Source: Candidatus Methylumidiphilus alinenensis (lineage in GTDB: Bacteria > Pseudomonadota > Gammaproteobacteria > Methylococcales > Methylococcaceae). Taken from it: a stretch of DNA of 34,305 nt. Below are positions 19,379 through 29,641 of this stretch, piece after piece. The first letter of the stretch is position 1; the number at the start of each line of letters is the position of its first letter. The position numbers and the translations under genes were made by a program. The notes beneath the pieces were generated by a model that was given only the letters and a program-made list of their open reading frames with translations, was not told where the DNA came from and did not search any database. The stretch spans positions 1-34,305 of the forward strand of contig QJPH01000294.1 in assembly GCA_003242955.1 (NCBI GenBank), written 5' to 3'.

Positions 19379-20818
19379 TTAAACACGCCCACCCATTTGC
19401 TTGAACGCCTCCAAAGCCTGCTCCCTGCTCAATTTTAGGTCTACCAACGGGTAAGGGTAATCCACGCCAAGCCGGACACCGCTAGACTCCAAGTCCGCAG
19501 TCGGCATTTGCCATGGCTGATGAATAAAACGGGTAGGCAACTGGGCAAGTTCGGGAACCCAGCGGCGTACATAATCGCCATTTGGGTCGAAGCGTTGGCC
19601 CTGCAAGACCGGATTGAAGATGCGAAAATAAGGTGCCGCATCGGCACCGCAGCCTGCAACCCATTGCCAGCCTATGGTATTGTTGGCCAAGTCCGCATCG
19701 ACTAAGGTATCCCAAAACCATCGAGCGCCCTCCAGCCAGTGGATGCGGAGGTTCTTGACTAAAAATGAAGCCGCCACCATGCGGACGCGGTTGTGCATCC
19801 AGCCCGTGTGCCACAATTCGCGCATGCCCGCGTCCACTAGAGGAATGCCAGTCTTACCCGTTTGCCAAGCTTGCAAAGTTTGTGACTGAGGTTCGTTCCA
19901 CCGGAAGCTCAGAAAGCTTTCATTCAAGGGGCTTTCCGGCGTATGTGGAAAATGAAACAATAGGTGATGGGCAAATTCGCGCCAACCTAATTGGCGGATA
20001 AAACTCTCCGCCCCGGCGTTTCCGTCCATGCATCCAAGCTTAGCCTGTATTGCCCAGGCGACTTGGCGTGGGCCGATTTCGCCAAAATGCAAATAAGGGG
20101 AGAGACGCGAGGTGCCAGCATGGTCTGGTCTGTCCCTTTCCGCCGAATATCCGCCAATCTCCGAATCGAGGAACTCATCCAGCATTGTCAACGCACCCTT
20201 CTCGCCGGGATGCCAAGCATCCCGGAGACCGCCATCCCATGGGATTTTTGGCAATAACTCCAAATTCTCCAAGGTCAAACTTTCCATGTCGGCTGGAACA
20301 AGGGTCAAGCTACGCGGCAAGGGTAAAATTGAATGTTCCAGACCTTTGCTTTGCAGCGCTTTCCAATAAGGGGTGAAAACTTTGTAAGGCTCGCCCTTGG
20401 CCCGTTTGACTTCCCATGGTTCATAAAACAGAGTGCTATTAAAACTTTCAACAATCAAACCGTCTTGACGCAAACTTTCTTTGATTTCCTTGTCGCGTTC
20501 TATAGTCCGAGGTTCGTAAGCGCGATTCCAAACTATCCGTTGCGCCCCAGTCTCGGCGATAACCTGCCTCAACATTGCCAGACTTGGGCCTTGCCGTATG
20601 ATTAGACGCGAACCAAGCCGCCTTATGGATTCGTCAAAAGCGACAATACTATGGTGTAGCCACCAGCGGCTTGCTGCCCCCATTGCCCATTCGCCATCCT
20701 CTTTGGGCGCATGGATGAACAAAAGCACCACCCGCTCCGCAGATTGTAGGGCTTTTGTGAGTGCGGGGTTGTCTGCCAGCCGTAAATCGCGACGAAACCA
20801 TACTATGGCAGTGTTCAA
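19379..20818 (-). CDS. phrB: Deoxyribodipyrimidine photolyase (class I CPD photolyase)
   Basis: A 479-residue flavoprotein of the photolyase/cryptochrome family that repairs cyclobutane pyrimidine dimers using light. The N-terminal antenna domain begins AIVWFRRDLRLADNPAL (4-20). The FAD domain shows GEIGPRQVAW, QLGWREFAHHLLFHFP, WMHNRVRMVAASFL and DADLANNTIGWQWVAG, all standard for class I CPD photolyases. Translation starts at a TTG (20818-20816) overlapping the ppiD stop as TTGA, the only start that gives the conserved N-terminus. The gene is therefore coupled to ppiD, an unusual partner. A strong stem-loop closes the unit. Confidence 0.95.
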   Translation of the reverse strand: MNTAIVWFRRDLRLADNPALTKALQSAERVVLLFIHAPKEDGEWAMGAASRWWLHHSIVAFDESIRRLGSRLIIRQGPSLAMLRQVIAETGAQRIVWNRAYEPRTIERDKEIKESLRQDGLIVESFNSTLFYEPWEVKRAKGEPYKVFTPYWKALQSKGLEHSILPLPRSLTLVPADMESLTLENLELLPKIPWDGGLRDAWHPGEKGALTMLDEFLDSEIGGYSAERDRPDHAGTSRLSPYLHFGEIGPRQVAWAIQAKLGCMDGNAGAESFIRQLGWREFAHHLLFHFPHTPESPLNESFLSFRWNEPQSQTLQAWQTGKTGIPLVDAGMRELWHTGWMHNRVRMVAASFLVKNLRIHWLEGARWFWDTLVDADLANNTIGWQWVAGCGADAAPYFRIFNPVLQGQRFDPNGDYVRRWVPELAQLPTRFIHQPWQMPTADLESSGVRLGVDYPYPLVDLKLSREQALEAFKQMGGRV

Positions 20819-22698
20819 TTTAATTGTTTGGATTGGTCCGAAACCTCAACCCCTATTTTACCCCGTAGATAATCCAGATAGGCATTGAACTCAGCCTGGC
20901 CAGCATTCTTGCCTAAATATTCTTTGGCCATTTCCAATTCTTTTGGATCAACCGATGCCAACGTGCCATCTTTAACTTCGGTCAATACGAAAACTGCCTG
21001 TACGCCCTTATCCAGCGTTGCCAACGATGCGCTTGGCTTGCCTGCGCTGGGACGGGGTGACTTGTTCACTGCTTTAAGCAAAGCGGGCGGCAAATCGGAT
21101 TTACCGGCTAGTTTCACCGAGGCTTTGTTTAGGGCCGCACCGATAGACTTGGCCGCGTCAGCCAAGGATTTCCCTTTTTGCACATCCGCCAGCAATTGTT
21201 CCGCCTGCTTGCGAGTTGCGTCTTGGGCCATTTTGTCGAGTAGCCGTGCTTTGATTTCACCTTTTATCTCAGCCAGTTGCTTGTCTGAAGCCGGCTGGTG
21301 GTCTTTCAAATGGAGAACGTAAACCTTGTCAGTGCCGATTTCCAATGCCGCACCGTTGTTGCCTTCAAGCACTTCGGGGGCAAAAGCGGCATTTCTAAAT
21401 AGAGCGTCGGCTGCTTCGCCATCGCCTGCTTCCCGTGTAAAAAAACCAGTTTGGGCTATTTTCAGGTTTAGGTTTTTGGCCAATGGTTCCAAACTGTCCT
21501 TATGTTCAAAACTCATTTCATCAAGTTTTTGCTTTGCTTCGTAAAATTTGTTTTCTGCTGCATTACGCCGATAATTCTTCTCAAGTTCGGCGCGGACATC
21601 TTCAAACTTTTTCGTTGTGGCGGGAATCAATTCGGTCACTTTGATCAGGTCGTATCCGAACTTTGTCTTAACCGGTTGGGAGACTTCCCCTTTTGCAAGT
21701 GCAAAAGCTGTGTTGGCTAAATCAGGATGTGTGGCTTCCTTGGTGTTTAGCCCCAAGTCACCGCCCTTCACAGCAGATTCCTTGTCATCAGAGCTTTCCT
21801 TGGCTAACGCGGAAAAGTCTTCACCCTTGGACAATCGCGCCCGTAAAGCCTCTGCCTTGGTTTGTGCGGCCTTGGCCTCGTCTTCCTTGTCCATGTCTGC
21901 TGCAATCAATATATGGCTGACCTTGCGTTGCTCTGGTGTGCCGTATTGGGCTTTTTGTTCCTCGTAGAGATTCTTTAATTCCTCCTCCGTCGGTTTAAAA
22001 TCGCCTGAAATATCGTCTATGCTTAGACTGACATATTCCACCGAAACCTTTTCGGGATTTTGAAATTGGCTTTTGTTTTCTTGGTAATATGCCTCAATGT
22101 CCTTATCCTGGATTTCTGCGTCGGCTTTTTTCAAAGGAATAGTGAAGTATTCAACCTGCCGCTCTTGGTTTCTGAAGCGATAGAAGTTTTCCAGTTGGCG
22201 CTTGGTTACGATGGCCGTGTCGGTGATGCCACGGACAAATTGCTCATTAAGCATTTGCTCTTTAACCTGAGCGGCGAACTGCGGCGGCGACATGCCTTGC
22301 GAGGCTAACACCGAGTTGAGCCGGTCTTTGTCGAACTTGCCTTCGGACTGAAAATATGGCTGGGACTGCACATAGCCGCGAATCTCTGCCTCGCTTACCG
22401 CCAAACCCTCTTTGCGTGAGGCTTGGTTGATTAACTCCATGTTAATGACCTGTTCCAGTGCCTCGTGCCTGAGTTGTTTATCGTCATAATCCGAGGAACC
22501 CATCCGGGCAACTAGGTTTTCGTAAGCCCGATTGACATCTTTTTCCAAGATTTCCCGTTCTCCAACTACCGCAATGGGTTTTTCCTTGCCGCCATTGAAA
22601 TAGTTGTTTATGCCCCATAATCCGAATGGAATGCCTACGAAAAGCAACATGACCCAGGCAAATATTCCATGTGCTTTGTCTCTAATCGCTTGCAACAT
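20815..22698 (-). CDS. ppiD: Periplasmic folding chaperone PpiD (peptidyl-prolyl isomerase family)
   Basis: A 627-residue inner-membrane-anchored chaperone that meets newly secreted proteins at the SecYEG exit. One N-terminal membrane helix (about 12-33, FAWVMLLFVGIPFGLW) is followed by a SurA-N-like chaperone region. A parvulin domain near 250-360 includes QRKVSHILIAAD and GGDLGLNTKEATHPDLANTAFAL, and a long C-terminal region ends the protein. Length is standard. It comes after hupB and two tRNAs in the order lon-hupB-tRNA-ppiD, and photolyase is coupled to its stop codon. Confidence 0.95.
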   Translation of the reverse strand: MLQAIRDKAHGIFAWVMLLFVGIPFGLWGINNYFNGGKEKPIAVVGEREILEKDVNRAYENLVARMGSSDYDDKQLRHEALEQVINMELINQASRKEGLAVSEAEIRGYVQSQPYFQSEGKFDKDRLNSVLASQGMSPPQFAAQVKEQMLNEQFVRGITDTAIVTKRQLENFYRFRNQERQVEYFTIPLKKADAEIQDKDIEAYYQENKSQFQNPEKVSVEYVSLSIDDISGDFKPTEEELKNLYEEQKAQYGTPEQRKVSHILIAADMDKEDEAKAAQTKAEALRARLSKGEDFSALAKESSDDKESAVKGGDLGLNTKEATHPDLANTAFALAKGEVSQPVKTKFGYDLIKVTELIPATTKKFEDVRAELEKNYRRNAAENKFYEAKQKLDEMSFEHKDSLEPLAKNLNLKIAQTGFFTREAGDGEAADALFRNAAFAPEVLEGNNGAALEIGTDKVYVLHLKDHQPASDKQLAEIKGEIKARLLDKMAQDATRKQAEQLLADVQKGKSLADAAKSIGAALNKASVKLAGKSDLPPALLKAVNKSPRPSAGKPSASLATLDKGVQAVFVLTEVKDGTLASVDPKELEMAKEYLGKNAGQAEFNAYLDYLRGKIGVEVSDQSKQLN

Positions 22699-23387: not shown

Positions 23388-25814
23388 TCAATGGGCTGTT
23401 ATTGCATTGACTGCCGTTTGTTTAGCCGTGCAATCCGAGTCAACCACCACCGGAGGCTTCGCAAGAGGTTCTGGCATCCTTTGCAGTGCCAAAGCCAATA
23501 CCTCGTCAATCCAGCGAACACTGATGACTTTTAAATCTTGCTTGATGTTGTCTGGGATTTCGGTCAAATCCTTTTCGTTCTCCTTAGGGATTATCACGGT
23601 GTCAATGCCTCCACGGTGTGCTGCAAGCAGCTTTTCCTTCAGCCCACCTATGGGCAGCACCTCACCGCGCAAAGTTATTTCTCCTGTCATGGCAACATTG
23701 GATCGAACGGGAATCTTGGTTAGCGCTGAAACCAACGAAGTACACATTCCTATGCCCGCGCTAGGGCCGTCTTTCGGTGTGGCACCCTCCGGCACATGGA
23801 TATGGACATCGTTCTTCTGGTAGAACGCTGGATCAATGCCAAGTACATCCGAACGGCTTCGAACCACCGTCATCGCGGTATGGATTGACTCCTGCATGAC
23901 TTCGCCGAGTTTGCCGGTGTAGGTCTGCTTGCCTGTTCCGGTCATGACAGCCGCTTCAATGGTGAGCAATTCCCCACCCACTTCAGTCCAAGCCAAACCT
24001 GTCACTTGCCCGACCTCGTCATTGTCTTCCGCCCTTCCATAACGGAACCGTTGCACTCCTAGGTATTGGTCGAGATTGTCCTCGGTGATTGTCACCAGAT
24101 CGTCGGATGGTTTAAGAACCAAAGCTTTGACAACCTTGCGGCATATCTTGGCGATATCGCGTTCCAAGTTTCGCACACCCGCTTCCCTTGTATAATACCG
24201 AATGATTCCTCTTACAGCCGATTCGCAAATCTCTATTTCAGCCGCCTTCAATCCATTGTTTTTGATTTGCTTGGGTATAAGATAACGCAAAGCAATATTG
24301 ATTTTTTCGATTTCAGTGTAACCGGCGATGCGTATCACCTCCATTCGATCTAATAGCGGGGCCGGTATGTTCATTGTATTGGCCGTGGCAATGAACATCA
24401 CTTCCGACAAATCGAAATCCACCTCCAAGTAGTGGTCGTTGAAAGTGTGGTTTTGCTCAGGGTCCAATACTTCAAGTAAAGCCGAGGCAGGGTCTCCGCG
24501 AAAATCCTGCGCCATTTTGTCGATCTCGTCCAGCATAAACATCGGGTTGCGGGATTTTACCTTAGACAGGTTTTGCAAAATCTTGCCAGGCAAAGACCCG
24601 ATGTAGGTGCGCCTATGCCCCCTGATTTCTGCTTCATCACGGACACCCCCTAAAGCCATGCGGACATATTTGCGGTTGGTGGCTCTGGCGATGGACTGGC
24701 CAAGCGAGGTTTTTCCTACGCCGGGTGGTCCTACTAGGCAGAGTATGGGGCCTTTCAATTTATTGACACGGTTTTGCACCGCCAAATATTCAAGTATGCG
24801 TTCCTTTACTTTTTCTAGTCCGTAGTGGTCCTTTTCTAGCACATCCTCGGCTTTGTTCAAATCCAAGCTTACCTTGGTGCGTTTCTTCCATGGAACACCA
24901 ACCATCCAGTCGATATAATTGCGTACCACTGTAGCCTCAGCCGACATTGGCGACATCAGTTTCAGTTTGTTCAACTCGGCATCGGCTTTGGTTCGGGCTG
25001 CATCGGGCATGCCGGCCTTTTCTATTTTGCGCGCAAGTTCCTCAATTTCATTGGGTACGTCTTCCATTTCCCCAAGTTCTTTTTGGATTGCTTTCATCTG
25101 TTCGTTGAGGTAATACTCCCGCTGGTTCTTTTCCATCTGCTGTTTTACGCGGCCCCTGATACGTTTCTCCATCTCTAACATATCGACCTCGTTTTCCATC
25201 AGGGTCATGAGTTTTTCCAAGCGTCCGGCAATGTCGTCCATTTCCAAAGTCGCTTGTTTATCTTCGATCTTGATGGTCATATGGGCCGCTATGGTGTCGG
25301 CCAGACGGCTAGGATCGTCAATGCCGGACAGGGAGTTTAGAACCTCCGGCGGGATGCGCTTATTCAACTTCACATACTGGTCGAAAGTATTGATCGCTGT
25401 CCGCGACAAAACTTCAATTTCTTGATCGTTCAAATCCAAACGGTCATGCAGTGGAGTCACTATGGCAACATAATGCTTTCCAACAATGCGGTATTTTTCA
25501 ACCTTGCAACGCTGGTTGCCTTCAACTAACACTTTAACCGTGCCATCAGGCAATTTCAAAAGTTGCAGAATGTTCGACAGGGTCCCTACATCATATAAGT
25601 CAGGAAAGCCAGGGTCGTCGTTTTCGGCATCCTTTTGTGCCACCAACATGATCTGTTTATTTTCCCGCATGGCGCTTTCCAAAGCCTGGATCGACTTGTC
25701 CCTCCCAACAAACAGTGGTATCACCATGTGTGGATAGACAACCACGTCGCGCAAAGGCAACACGGGGACCATTTTGTCCACATAACTATCATTTTCAGGC
25801 AATTTTTTTTCCAT
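23388..25814 (-). CDS. lon: ATP-dependent serine protease Lon
   Basis: An 808-residue hexameric protease that degrades misfolded and short-lived regulatory proteins. The N-domain begins with VPVLPLRDVVVYPHMVIPLF, a coiled-coil middle region follows, the AAA+ module has GPPGVGKTS and FMLDEIDKM, and the protease domain has the catalytic Ser in PKDGPSAGIGM with the Lys downstream. I chose the ATG at 25814 because AAAGG lies 8 bp before it; the frame extends to a TTG at 25856 with no ribosome-binding site. The 146-bp gap to clpX contains two hairpins, so lon may have its own promoter or read-through control. Confidence 0.96.
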   Translation of the reverse strand: MEKKLPENDSYVDKMVPVLPLRDVVVYPHMVIPLFVGRDKSIQALESAMRENKQIMLVAQKDAENDDPGFPDLYDVGTLSNILQLLKLPDGTVKVLVEGNQRCKVEKYRIVGKHYVAIVTPLHDRLDLNDQEIEVLSRTAINTFDQYVKLNKRIPPEVLNSLSGIDDPSRLADTIAAHMTIKIEDKQATLEMDDIAGRLEKLMTLMENEVDMLEMEKRIRGRVKQQMEKNQREYYLNEQMKAIQKELGEMEDVPNEIEELARKIEKAGMPDAARTKADAELNKLKLMSPMSAEATVVRNYIDWMVGVPWKKRTKVSLDLNKAEDVLEKDHYGLEKVKERILEYLAVQNRVNKLKGPILCLVGPPGVGKTSLGQSIARATNRKYVRMALGGVRDEAEIRGHRRTYIGSLPGKILQNLSKVKSRNPMFMLDEIDKMAQDFRGDPASALLEVLDPEQNHTFNDHYLEVDFDLSEVMFIATANTMNIPAPLLDRMEVIRIAGYTEIEKINIALRYLIPKQIKNNGLKAAEIEICESAVRGIIRYYTREAGVRNLERDIAKICRKVVKALVLKPSDDLVTITEDNLDQYLGVQRFRYGRAEDNDEVGQVTGLAWTEVGGELLTIEAAVMTGTGKQTYTGKLGEVMQESIHTAMTVVRSRSDVLGIDPAFYQKNDVHIHVPEGATPKDGPSAGIGMCTSLVSALTKIPVRSNVAMTGEITLRGEVLPIGGLKEKLLAAHRGGIDTVIIPKENEKDLTEIPDNIKQDLKVISVRWIDEVLALALQRMPEPLAKPPVVVDSDCTAKQTAVNAITAH

Positions 25815-25864
25815 CGGGGAAACCTTTGAAGTAACTAGGAGGCGAACGTGGATCAATGCGGCTT

Positions 25865-25960: not shown

Positions 25961-27235
25961 TTATTCTGCCGTGGCAAACTGCTTTTCTTCGCTTTTGTAG
26001 ATCAAGTAGGGCTGGTTCTCACCTTTAACTACCTTTTCATCAATGACCACCTTGGAAATATGGTCTGTTGAAGGCAGTTCATACATAGTGTCAAGCAGAA
26101 TGTGTTCAAGTATGGTGCGAAGCCCCCTTGCTCCTGTCTTTCTTTCCATTGCACGTATGGCTATTATTTTGAGGGCATCCTCGCGGATTTCAAGGTCGCA
26201 ACCCTCCATCTCAAACAATTTTTTGTATTGTTTGACCAATGCGTTCTTAGGCTCGGTCAAAATTTTCACCAACGCATCCTGATCCAGCTCCTCCAAAGTG
26301 GCAACGACAGGGAGGCGTCCTACGAACTCTGGAATCAATCCGTAACGGATAAGATCCTCCGCCTCCACGTCCGCTAGAACTTGGCCTACATTCCGGCGTT
26401 GGTCTTTGCTCTTGACCTCGGCTGAAAAACCAATGCCTCCCTTCTCGGAGCGGGCGCTAATGATCTTGTCCAGTCCAGCGAATGCCCCGCCGCAAATGAA
26501 TAAAATATTGGCCGTGTTGACTTGCAGGAATTCCTGCTGGGGATGCTTGCGACCGCCTTGCGGCGGGACCGAGGCGACGGTTCCCTCAATCAGTTTTAAT
26601 AGTGCCTGCTGCACCCCTTCGCCCGAAACATCGCGGGTGATGGACGGATTGTCCGACTTGCGCGAGATTTTATCGATCTCGTCAATATAAACAATACCTG
26701 ATTCGGCTTTTGCCACATCATAATCACATTTCTGGAGTATTTTCTGGATAATGTTCTCCACATCCTCGCCCACATATCCCGCCTCGGTCAACGTAGTGGC
26801 ATCGGCGATGGTGAAAGGCACATCCAGAAGCCGCGCCAGAGTTTCCGCCAACAAGGTTTTGCCTGAACCGGTTGGCCCTATCAATAGAATATTGCTCTTT
26901 GCCAGCTCGACCTCATGCTTCCTGCCTTGGGTGCGCAGCCTTTTATAGTGGTTGTAAACAGCCACGGCCAAGATACGCTTGGCCTTTTCCTGGCCAATGA
27001 CATATTCGTCCAAGACGGTTTTAATCTCCTTTGGCTTAGGCAATTGGTCAGAATTTCCGGTGACGTTTTCCTGCAACTCCTCGCGAATAATGTCGTTGCA
27101 TAGTTCCACACATTCGTCACACACGAAAACAGCCGGACCGGCAATAAGTTTTCGGACCTCATGCTGGCTTTTCCCGCAAAAAGAACAGTACAGAAGCTTT
27201 CCGCTCCCTTCCTTGCCGATTTTATCGTCACTCAT
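25961..27235 (-). CDS. clpX: ATP-dependent Clp protease unfoldase subunit ClpX
   Basis: A 424-residue AAA+ unfoldase that feeds substrates to ClpP. The N-terminal zinc domain has [13 protein letters not shown] with the second pair in VCDECVELC. The AAA+ core has GPTGSGKT, the GYVG pore loop, VYIDEIDKI and the GRKH loop. The ClpP-docking IGF tripeptide is present in GGIGFSAE, so it can bind ClpP. A strong AGGGGG lies before the ATG. It lies 120 bp after clpP in the usual clpP-clpX-lon order. Confidence 0.97.
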
Positions 27236-27355: not shown

Positions 27356-27982
27356 TTAACCAGAGGGTGGTGGTTGACGGCTGGTAAGAACCTTGTCTAT
27401 AAGCCCATATTGGACGGCATCATCACCGCTCATAAAGTTATCACGGTCAGTGTCGATTTGAATCTTTTCCAATGGTTGGCCACAGTGCTTGGCTAAAATC
27501 TTGTTCAGGCGATCACGCACTGCGAGTATCTCCCTCGCATGAATATCAATGTCACTGGCCTGCCCTTGGAAGCCACCCAAGGGTTGGTGGATCATCACCC
27601 TAGAATGAGGGAGGCTGTAGCGTTTGCCTGCCGCCCCTCCAGCCAGCAAAAGCGCACCCATGCTTGCCGCCTGACCGATGCACAAGGTGCTGACATCAGG
27701 TTTGATAAACTGCATTGTGTCGTAGATGGCAAGCCCCGCCGTCACCAAGCCGCCGGGTGAATTGATGTAAAGGTGGATATCTTTGTCTGGATTTTCCGAT
27801 TCAAGGAACAACATCTGGGCAACGACCAGATTTGCCATATAGTCCTCGACCGGGCCGACCAGAAAAATGACTCGCTCTTTTAAAAGACGCGAATAAATAT
27901 CAAATGCCCGTTCGCCCCGTGCGGACTGTTCAATGACAATGGGGACTAGCCCGCCCGCCGCATGGATTTCGTTTTGTTTCAT
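27356..27982 (-). CDS. clpP: ATP-dependent Clp protease proteolytic subunit ClpP
   Basis: A 208-residue serine peptidase that assembles into the 14-mer degradation chamber. Catalytic Ser lies in [11 protein letters not shown], His in VMIHQPLGG, and Asp in the following DTDRDNFM segment. The N-terminal [21 protein letters not shown] is standard and length is normal. It starts 31 bp after the trigger factor stop, so tig and clpP are probably cotranscribed. Confidence 0.97.
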
Positions 27983-28013: not shown

Positions 28014-29126
28014 TCATCCTTGGACGGTCTGTGAAAGGGGTGTCATCAATTCCTTGAAACCGATTTGTTTTTCACTGACGTTAGCATTTGCGAGGATGAG
28101 ATCGACAACTTGGTCTTCAATGACTAAGTTCCGCACTTGATCCAATTGGTTTCGATTGGAATAATACCAGTTCACCACCTCCTCGGGTTTTTCATAACTC
28201 AAGGCAAATTCTTCAATGGTTTGGCGTACCCTCTCATTATCCACTGTCACTTTTTTAGTTTCTACGATCCGGCTAATCAGCAATCCAAGTGCAACGCGAC
28301 GGAGGGCCAAAGAATGAAGCTGTTCCTTGGCAACCGCTTCGTCGAAGGGCTGTCTACGGTTGGCAAAATCGACCTTAGTGGCATTGATCAGGCTTTTCAA
28401 TTCTTCATTGACCAAAGACGCGGGCAAGCTTAAAGCTTCGTTTCTCTGAAGCAACTCCTGCATGACCGAGTCTTTAGTTTTTGCATTTAACGCCCGTTGC
28501 ATTTCCCTTTCCATGCTGGATTTTATTTCTGTGCGGAAAACGTCCACATCGCCGTTTTCGATTCCGTATTTTTGCACAAATTCTGCGTCCAATTCAGGTA
28601 ATGTCACTTCTTCTGTAGGGTTTTCCGGGGGCGTGACCGAATCACCTTGCGCCGCTTGGTTTTCGGATGGTTGGACGATCCGGTGTTGTTCGCGGAGTCG
28701 GAGTAACATATTATCCAAATCATCGTCTTTAACTTCGGAAACGAAACGGTCAACTTCCATCATCTCAATGGGGAAGAGGACAAACTCTGGCATGATCTCG
28801 AAGTCAGCCACATATTTCAAACCCTCACCTTCGGCAGTCAATTCGGGAGTGATTAACGGACCCGATGCGGGCCTTAGCTTTTCTTCGCGGAGTGCTTCAT
28901 TAAAGCTAGACTGGATCAATGCCGTGACAACCTCTTCCCTAACCCCCTTGCCATATCTCTTTTGAATCAAGCTTTGCGGCACCTTTCCTGGCCTAAATCC
29001 ATCAATTTTGACGTTTCCAGCCATGGATTTGAGACGCTCTCTAACTTGTTCCTGGATTTTTTCCTCTGGAACATGCACGGTCATCTTTCTGCTTAATTCA
29101 GAAGTTGTTTCGACGGAAACTTGCAT
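28014..29126 (-). CDS. tig: Trigger factor lacking the FKBP-type PPIase domain
   Basis: A 370-residue ribosome-associated chaperone; E. coli trigger factor has 432. The N-terminal ribosome-binding domain is intact with the signature GFRPGKVP at 43-50, the same position as in E. coli. The C-terminal chaperone arms are also present, from LPELDAEFVQKYGIENGDV (176-194) to the end. The whole FKBP-type prolyl isomerase domain that normally sits between them (about residues 150-246 in E. coli) is missing. In its place is a short acidic/proline linker, about residues 152-174, including QAAQGDSVTPPENPTEE. The frame is open throughout. The ATG at 29126 is chosen since GAGG lies 9 bp upstream and the family start follows; the frame runs to 29141. 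It precedes clpP as usual. Confidence 0.95.
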   Translation of the reverse strand: MQVSVETTSELSRKMTVHVPEEKIQEQVRERLKSMAGNVKIDGFRPGKVPQSLIQKRYGKGVREEVVTALIQSSFNEALREEKLRPASGPLITPELTAEGEGLKYVADFEIMPEFVLFPIEMMEVDRFVSEVKDDDLDNMLLRLREQHRIVQPSENQAAQGDSVTPPENPTEEVTLPELDAEFVQKYGIENGDVDVFRTEIKSSMEREMQRALNAKTKDSVMQELLQRNEALSLPASLVNEELKSLINATKVDFANRRQPFDEAVAKEQLHSLALRRVALGLLISRIVETKKVTVDNERVRQTIEEFALSYEKPEEVVNWYYSNRNQLDQVRNLVIEDQVVDLILANANVSEKQIGFKELMTPLSQTVQG

Positions 29127-29262: not shown

Positions 29263-29347
<85 letters not shown>

Positions 29348-29548: not shown

Positions 29549-29641
29549 TGGCGGAGAGGGCGGGATTCGAACCCGCGTGGGGCGGTAAAGCCCCCATCCG
29601 ATTTCGAGTCGGCGCCGTTATGGCCACTTCGGTACCTCTCC
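29549..29641 (-). tRNA. tRNA-Ser (anticodon CGA)
   Basis: A 93-nt class II tRNA on the minus strand: GGAGAGG/CCTCTCC acceptor stem, anticodon loop CTCGAAA with CGA, a long variable arm, GTTCGAATC T loop and encoded CCA. It reads UCG codons. The 201 bp between it and tRNA-Leu contain no gene. Confidence 0.95.

Follow-up and report, generated by a model that had tools for sequence, protein, structure and literature searches.

In the genome of Candidatus Methylumidiphilus alinenensis a single trigger factor was detected, and this protein has very probably undergone a genuine loss of its FKBP-type prolyl isomerase (PPIase) domain while staying a working chaperone. It is encoded by the tig gene in a window of 34,305 nucleotides, which is the whole stretch of DNA analysed here, and the best reading of its sequence is that of a ribosome-docked holdase which would lack isomerase activity. 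The protein shares with the canonical three-domain trigger factor (tig, TIGR00115; E. coli 1w26) the N-terminal domain, the ribosome-binding loop, the C-terminal cradle and the neighbouring clpP and clpX genes, but is devoid of the FKBP/PPIase domain. Since orthology, model score and two of the three domains agree with a trigger factor and only the third defining feature fails, it is filed here as a trigger factor variant.

The domain content is apparent from several searches. The NCBIfam tig model TIGR00115 scores the protein at 264.8 bits against a cut-off of 180.2, with the match falling into two stretches, and a phmmer search of solved structures pairs residues 1-162 of the protein with 1-162 of E. 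coli trigger factor and residues 170-362 with 239-429, skipping the PPIase part. A Pfam scan of the 370-residue protein gave no FKBP_C match at a maximum E-value of 10, a setting at which the HMMER filters discard most matches above about 0.1. The GFRxGxxP loop motif of trigger factors is present as GFRPGKVP. The sister protein within the genus, L006, is 441 residues long, and by a hand count on the sequences six residues in the shorter protein stand for 75 in the sister. The original prediction had described a protein of 370 residues with the loop at its E. coli position, a normal C-terminal chaperone region and no central FKBP domain, all of which is borne out, and its placement of the linker at about 152-174 is fair. 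The remnant AAQGDSVT which it had pointed out does pair with the stretch AALGDRLT in the sister, where its FKBP region begins. The clean in-frame deletion which it proposed is indeed in frame; clean it is only in part, given the divergence on both flanks and six bridging residues for which there is no evident equivalent. Its view of a naturally reduced chaperone is the best-supported reading in the light of the domain content, the changed junction and the parallel cases described below. The genes tig, clpP, clpX and lon lie on one strand of the window in the usual context of tig. The arrangement with clpP, clpX, lon and a ppiD-like gene downstream of tig is also the one known from E. coli.

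Table 1. Features of the tig gene, its product and its surroundings in the window
Feature	Position	Strand	Remarks
tig, trigger factor without PPIase domain	28014..29126	-	370 aa; ATG at 29126, stop at 28014-28016, stop codon counted
Trigger_N, ribosome-binding domain, residues 1-142	28701..29126	-	Pfam PF05697, E 4e-40
Ribosome-binding loop GFRPGKVP, residues 43-50	28977..29000	-	position as in E. coli
Linker in the place of the PPIase domain, residues 146-171	28614..28691	-	R148H, W151V, P157Q, R163S relative to residues constant in five congeners
Junction PPENPT, residues 166-171	28614..28631	-	sister protein has 75 residues of FKBP domain here
Trigger_C, cradle with arms, residues 194-345	28092..28547	-	Pfam PF05698, E 4.2e-29
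clpP, next gene downstream of tig	27356..27982	-	Pfam CLP_protease
clpX	25961..27235	-	Pfam zf-C4_ClpX and AAA_2
lon	23388..25856	-	Pfam Lon_C and LON_substr_bdg
ppiD-like gene, SurA_N and parvulin domain	20815..22698	-	Pfam SurA_N_3 and Rotamase
tRNA-Leu (anticodon tag), upstream of tig	29263-29347	same strand as tig	
tRNA-Ser (anticodon cga), upstream of tig	29549-29641	same strand as tig	

All six congeners retain the missing segment. With the protein as probe, one full-length match is found in its own genome (G000) as against two matches in each of the congeners, and in the five congeners which carry the gene on one contig the paired matches are separated by 222-225 bases. The FKBP_C profile (PF00254) detects the PPIase domain of tig in all six, that of G003 being spread over two contig ends. 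Trigger factor is 434-445 residues long in 28 full-length relatives. Trees built without the FKBP columns place the shortened protein inside the genus beside L006 (FastTree support 0.91-0.95), and in a tree of 93 sequences its N and C parts likewise fall among the congeners (support 1.0); this larger tree left out twelve named loci as well as L089-L106 and includes three genomes twice (L005/L034, L007/L036 and L008/L038). Because the protein is nested in the genus beside L006, the excision of the FKBP domain would most likely fall on this species' own branch. The tig gene of G003 is split inside the FKBP region between the end of contig C61 (L004) and the start of contig C156 (end of L037). 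The two ends do not overlap exactly by as many as 20 bases, and one of them contains a stop codon; these features could be strain variation or an end-of-contig error.

The residues that flank the lost domain have drifted, as expected of an old loss. They were compared in a set of 29 sequences, the protein and 28 others, without L004, whose gene is cut by a contig end, and hence with five of the six congeners. Within residues 146-165 the protein departs, by the four substitutions given in Table 1, at 4 of 8 positions that are constant in the five congeners and at 15 of 164 elsewhere (one-sided Fisher p=0.006, a test that rests on 8 columns). Other ranges give p=0.015 (141-165) and p=0.019 (150-165), and the inclusion of residues 172-176, a range picked post hoc, raises the departures to 6 of 12, as compared with 13 of 160 elsewhere (p=5e-4). 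When each of the five congeners is taken in turn as the focal sequence, 0 or 1 departures are counted in 146-165. A first version of the test used columns with at least 85% conservation among the other 28 sequences and did not separate the protein as clearly, with 3 of 5 departures in the protein and 0-2 of 5-6 in the others. Residues W151 and R163 are E. coli positions as counted on the alignment. In the 23 sequences from outside the genus, R occupies position 148 in all but one, which has K; position 151 is W in 20, F in two and R in one, and position 163 is R in 17, Q in four and E in two. The rest of the gene shows what codon positions indicate to be purifying selection: in the aligned N and C parts the differences from the sister at codon positions 1, 2 and 3 amount to 0.197, 0.154 and 0.454, and those between the full-length congeners L005 and L006 to 0.223, 0.150 and 0.524.

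These observations bear on whether the gene is an assembly artefact or strain chimera in which about 207 bases were dropped inside an ordinary tig gene. The draft state of the genome (597 contigs, 4.4% contamination) would allow for this, and the split of the G003 gene in the FKBP region, with its stop codon, implies that the stretch can be hard to assemble. A dropped segment, however, predicts flanks like those of the relatives, whereas both sides are changed at residues constant in the five congeners, and six new residues join the two sides without breaking the frame. A PF00254 search found no tig-type FKBP segment elsewhere in the G000 assembly; its FKBP_C matches come from two genes only, both outside tig, on contigs C135 and C10, so that the missing piece did not turn up on another contig. 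Four other genomes share the two-domain architecture, three of them in one genus. Together the changed junction residues, the purifying selection and the nesting in the genus make an artefact very unlikely. The original prediction had taken close relatives with a full FKBP domain, together with reads carrying the missing segment, as signs of an assembly error or strain artefact; the first half holds, since all six congeners have an FKBP domain here, but the changed junction residues and the parallel cases speak against the error itself.

The parallel cases come from a survey of 1003 genomes (G000 to G1002), of which five are known to have a two-domain trigger factor: G000, G668, G977, G978 and G981. 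They fall in three separate places of the tree, and nearly all trigger factors in the surveyed genomes carry the PPIase domain. In G668 the tig model is matched at positions 2-142 and 234-410, with 12 bases between the two parts in one open frame. The two-domain form occurs in all three searched genomes of its genus (G668, G978 with 99% identity and G977 with 68%) and, at 25% identity to G668, in G981, which belongs to another family and falls under the TIGR00115 cut-off (135.9 against 180.2). All four proteins consist of Trigger_N and Trigger_C with no FKBP in Pfam, and in all four genomes tig lies before clpP and clpX, which were identified by Pfam names in G981 and by the resemblance of their translations in the other three.

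Two matches per genome were taken as the sign of an intervening domain, and spacing and frame length were read from the matches listed, about 150 each in the order, phylum and class surveys. Matches were obtained in 230 of 234 genomes of the order, where besides G000 only G177 has a single match; in 392 of 396 of the phylum, where single matches besides G000 number 15, each full length by TIGR00115; in 366 of 379 of the class, where five besides G000 have one match, G668 among them; and in 70 of 76 relatives of G668. The 28 genomes of the 1003 without a match are those without a match to a trigger factor protein probe. In the four of the order survey and the 13 of the class survey a second search, with TIGR00115, produced weak matches at most; the others were searched with a protein probe only (G244, G349, G367 and G450 of the phylum survey; G021 and G050; G980, G982, G983, G984 and G988). 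Where the window's own protein served as the query, a divergent two-domain form like that of G981 could have escaped. Several candidates were set aside. G177 covers only tig model positions 145-410 in a 285-residue frame, its N part being missing; G748 and G910, single matches of the class survey, are full length, and G811, another, has no TIGR00115 match; G679 yielded only fragments in both the class survey and that of the G668 relatives; G993 is cut by a contig end with the FKBP segment present; and G353 has two matches in the class survey.

Other irregularities of tig surfaced in the same searches. No convincing trigger factor was found in G735 and G805 (genus g376), G811, G744 and G950, which are 97-99% complete: the first two have weak TIGR00115 matches only, within model positions 304-408 or 148-239, and the other three have none, G811 giving one weak protein match. 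Besides the normal gene, a second and divergent one resembling trigger factor, with 28-35% identity and a frame of 459 residues, occurs in G013 (C1:4448096-4449415) and G022 (C1:4397566-4398885), which share a genus within the same family. In G999 (C1:1858269-1859541) the tig matches lie in three open frames of 103, 140 and 316 residues, from which it follows that the gene is broken or the assembly contains frameshifts. The tig stretch of a Methylocucumis oryzae draft (L056:5001-6291) is not open, with 9 stops in the frame tried.

The loss in Ca. M. alinenensis is, judged by these comparisons, independent of that in the G668 group, since its N and C parts sit inside the genus with support of 1.0, the two proteins are only 29% identical and their junctions differ. 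The loss in G981 is likely to be independent of the G668 group as well; it does not group with it in the 93-sequence tree, but because its branch is long and weakly placed (support 0.737) its independence is only probable. The existence of two-domain forms in other lineages also raises horizontal transfer from a lineage already so equipped. This is most improbable and largely refuted by the placement within the genus and the low identity to the G668 protein, by the 28 residues between REQ and LPEL as against 11 in G668, in junctions that differ in sequence too, and by the usual gene context.

It could also be argued that the deletion is real but lies in a gene on its way to being lost, the protein being a non-functional remnant. 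Trigger factor is absent from 334 of 15,575 genomes in the available part of PMC11559001, and some genomes of the class are without a detected one, which implies that its loss is tolerated. Yet the frame is open, the ribosome loop is intact and the third-position excess is like that of the full-length congeners, and G668 and G977 have kept both the two-domain form and a third-position excess at 68% identity. A remnant is therefore quite unlikely, and a reduced chaperone that is still in use is the preferred reading.

How the domain came to be lost is less certain, and the congeners may offer a clue. Excerpts of PMC9527764 name Glu178, Ile195, Phe198, Tyr221 and Phe233 as key residues of E. coli trigger factor, and F198A is reported to abolish its isomerase activity (PMC7804408, available excerpt). 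Position 178 was set aside from the comparison, as 21 of the 23 sequences from outside the genus have T there. Of the four remaining residues (195, 198, 221 and 233), all are retained in L005, L007 and L008; the sister L006 has Y221S together with the conservative I195L, and L009 has F198L, Y221H and F233V. F198 and F233 are invariant in the 23 sequences from outside the genus; Y221 is replaced once there, by F, and 195 is I, V or L. Position 196 is Q in L007 and L008 and P in 22 of the 23 sequences outside the genus. The exception, L029, carries G at this position and D at 197, a finding that counts against decay before the loss. The FKBP_C match of L006 (27.1 bits) is the weakest among the five congeners with the gene on one contig. 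These changes, found in the two proteins L006 and L009, are suggestive of relaxed selection on isomerase activity before the loss. Mean identity among the five congeners is 0.77 for the N part, 0.61 for FKBP and 0.65 for the C part, and pairs of non-congeners from the family-level set whose N and C parts are about as similar give 0.74, 0.62 and 0.62; low FKBP identity (0.41-0.51) occurs only in congener pairs that include L009. The FKBP part as a whole is thus not evolving faster in this genus, which speaks against erosion having come first. A possible path would run from relaxed selection on the isomerase in the genus through decay of the active site to excision on this species' branch. The balance tilts slightly towards the wider account in which the PPIase domain was shed independently at least twice, probably three times, in Gammaproteobacteria, with the two-domain chaperone under selection and, in this genus, an active site that eroded before the domain was cut out in one species.

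The original prediction had further suggested that the isomerase function might be taken over by other proteins. As a gain this finds no support, the isomerase counts being like those of the congeners. Outside trigger factor there are two FKBP_C matches in G000 and two to four in the congeners; cyclophilin gives one match in G000 and one in each congener, and parvulin-type domains six in G000 and five to six in the congeners. No gain of extra isomerases of these three types is seen in G000 relative to the six congeners.

The two-domain protein, presumably without isomerase activity, may work as follows. The N domain would dock at the ribosome exit via GFRPGKVP, the C-terminal cradle and arms would keep hold of nascent chains independently of ATP, and the two parts would be bridged by a 28-residue linker (148-175). 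The cradle may stay more open, since there is no PPIase head onto which Arm1 could fold back, and closing by the head would be impossible. In simulations described in the available text of PMC4626277, collapsed trigger factor has Arm1 bound to the PPIase head, and such collapsed forms have a weaker hold on unfolded chains.

Reduced trigger factors of other kinds provide a measure for this one. An engineered E. coli trigger factor without the PPIase domain, reportedly the subject, by its title, of a 2010 article by Gupta, has the same N and C set. That form is laboratory-made, whereas the present protein is natural and its linker has diverged. E. coli trigger factor can do without its PPIase domain both in vitro and in vivo according to the accessible part of PMC9287376. 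The chloroplast Tig2 of plants is likewise a naturally truncated trigger factor, but as far as the excerpted PMC11731035 describes it, it consists of the ribosome-binding domain only, is without chaperone activity and has a role in ribosome biogenesis, while the present protein keeps the cradle. The trigger factor duplicates of Myxococcales are reduced homologs too, although with the opposite loss: in the available part of PMC11559001 it is their N domain that is lost or altered, and the PPIase and C domains remain. Against the MPN555 model (NF045756) the present protein scores 20.5 bits where the cut-off is 200, with only its C part matching the 179-position model. The MPN555 family of Mycoplasma is taken here to be a trigger-factor-like chaperone without a PPIase domain. 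Among the matches listed from a mostly open-access literature, no title or abstract describes a natural bacterial trigger factor made of N and C parts.

Trigger factor itself is close to universal in bacteria, being found in 97.86% of 15,575 genomes (PMC11559001, available part). With similar losses in one other distant lineage at least, and probably in two, its PPIase domain becomes open to study as an accessory that can be dispensed with. The natural losses, of which one lies in a genus that otherwise keeps the domain, would make it possible to compare clients, proline usage and ribosome interaction directly between proteins that have the domain and proteins that lack it, and if the losses are truly independent, the role of the PPIase domain of trigger factor would be testable between natural sister species.
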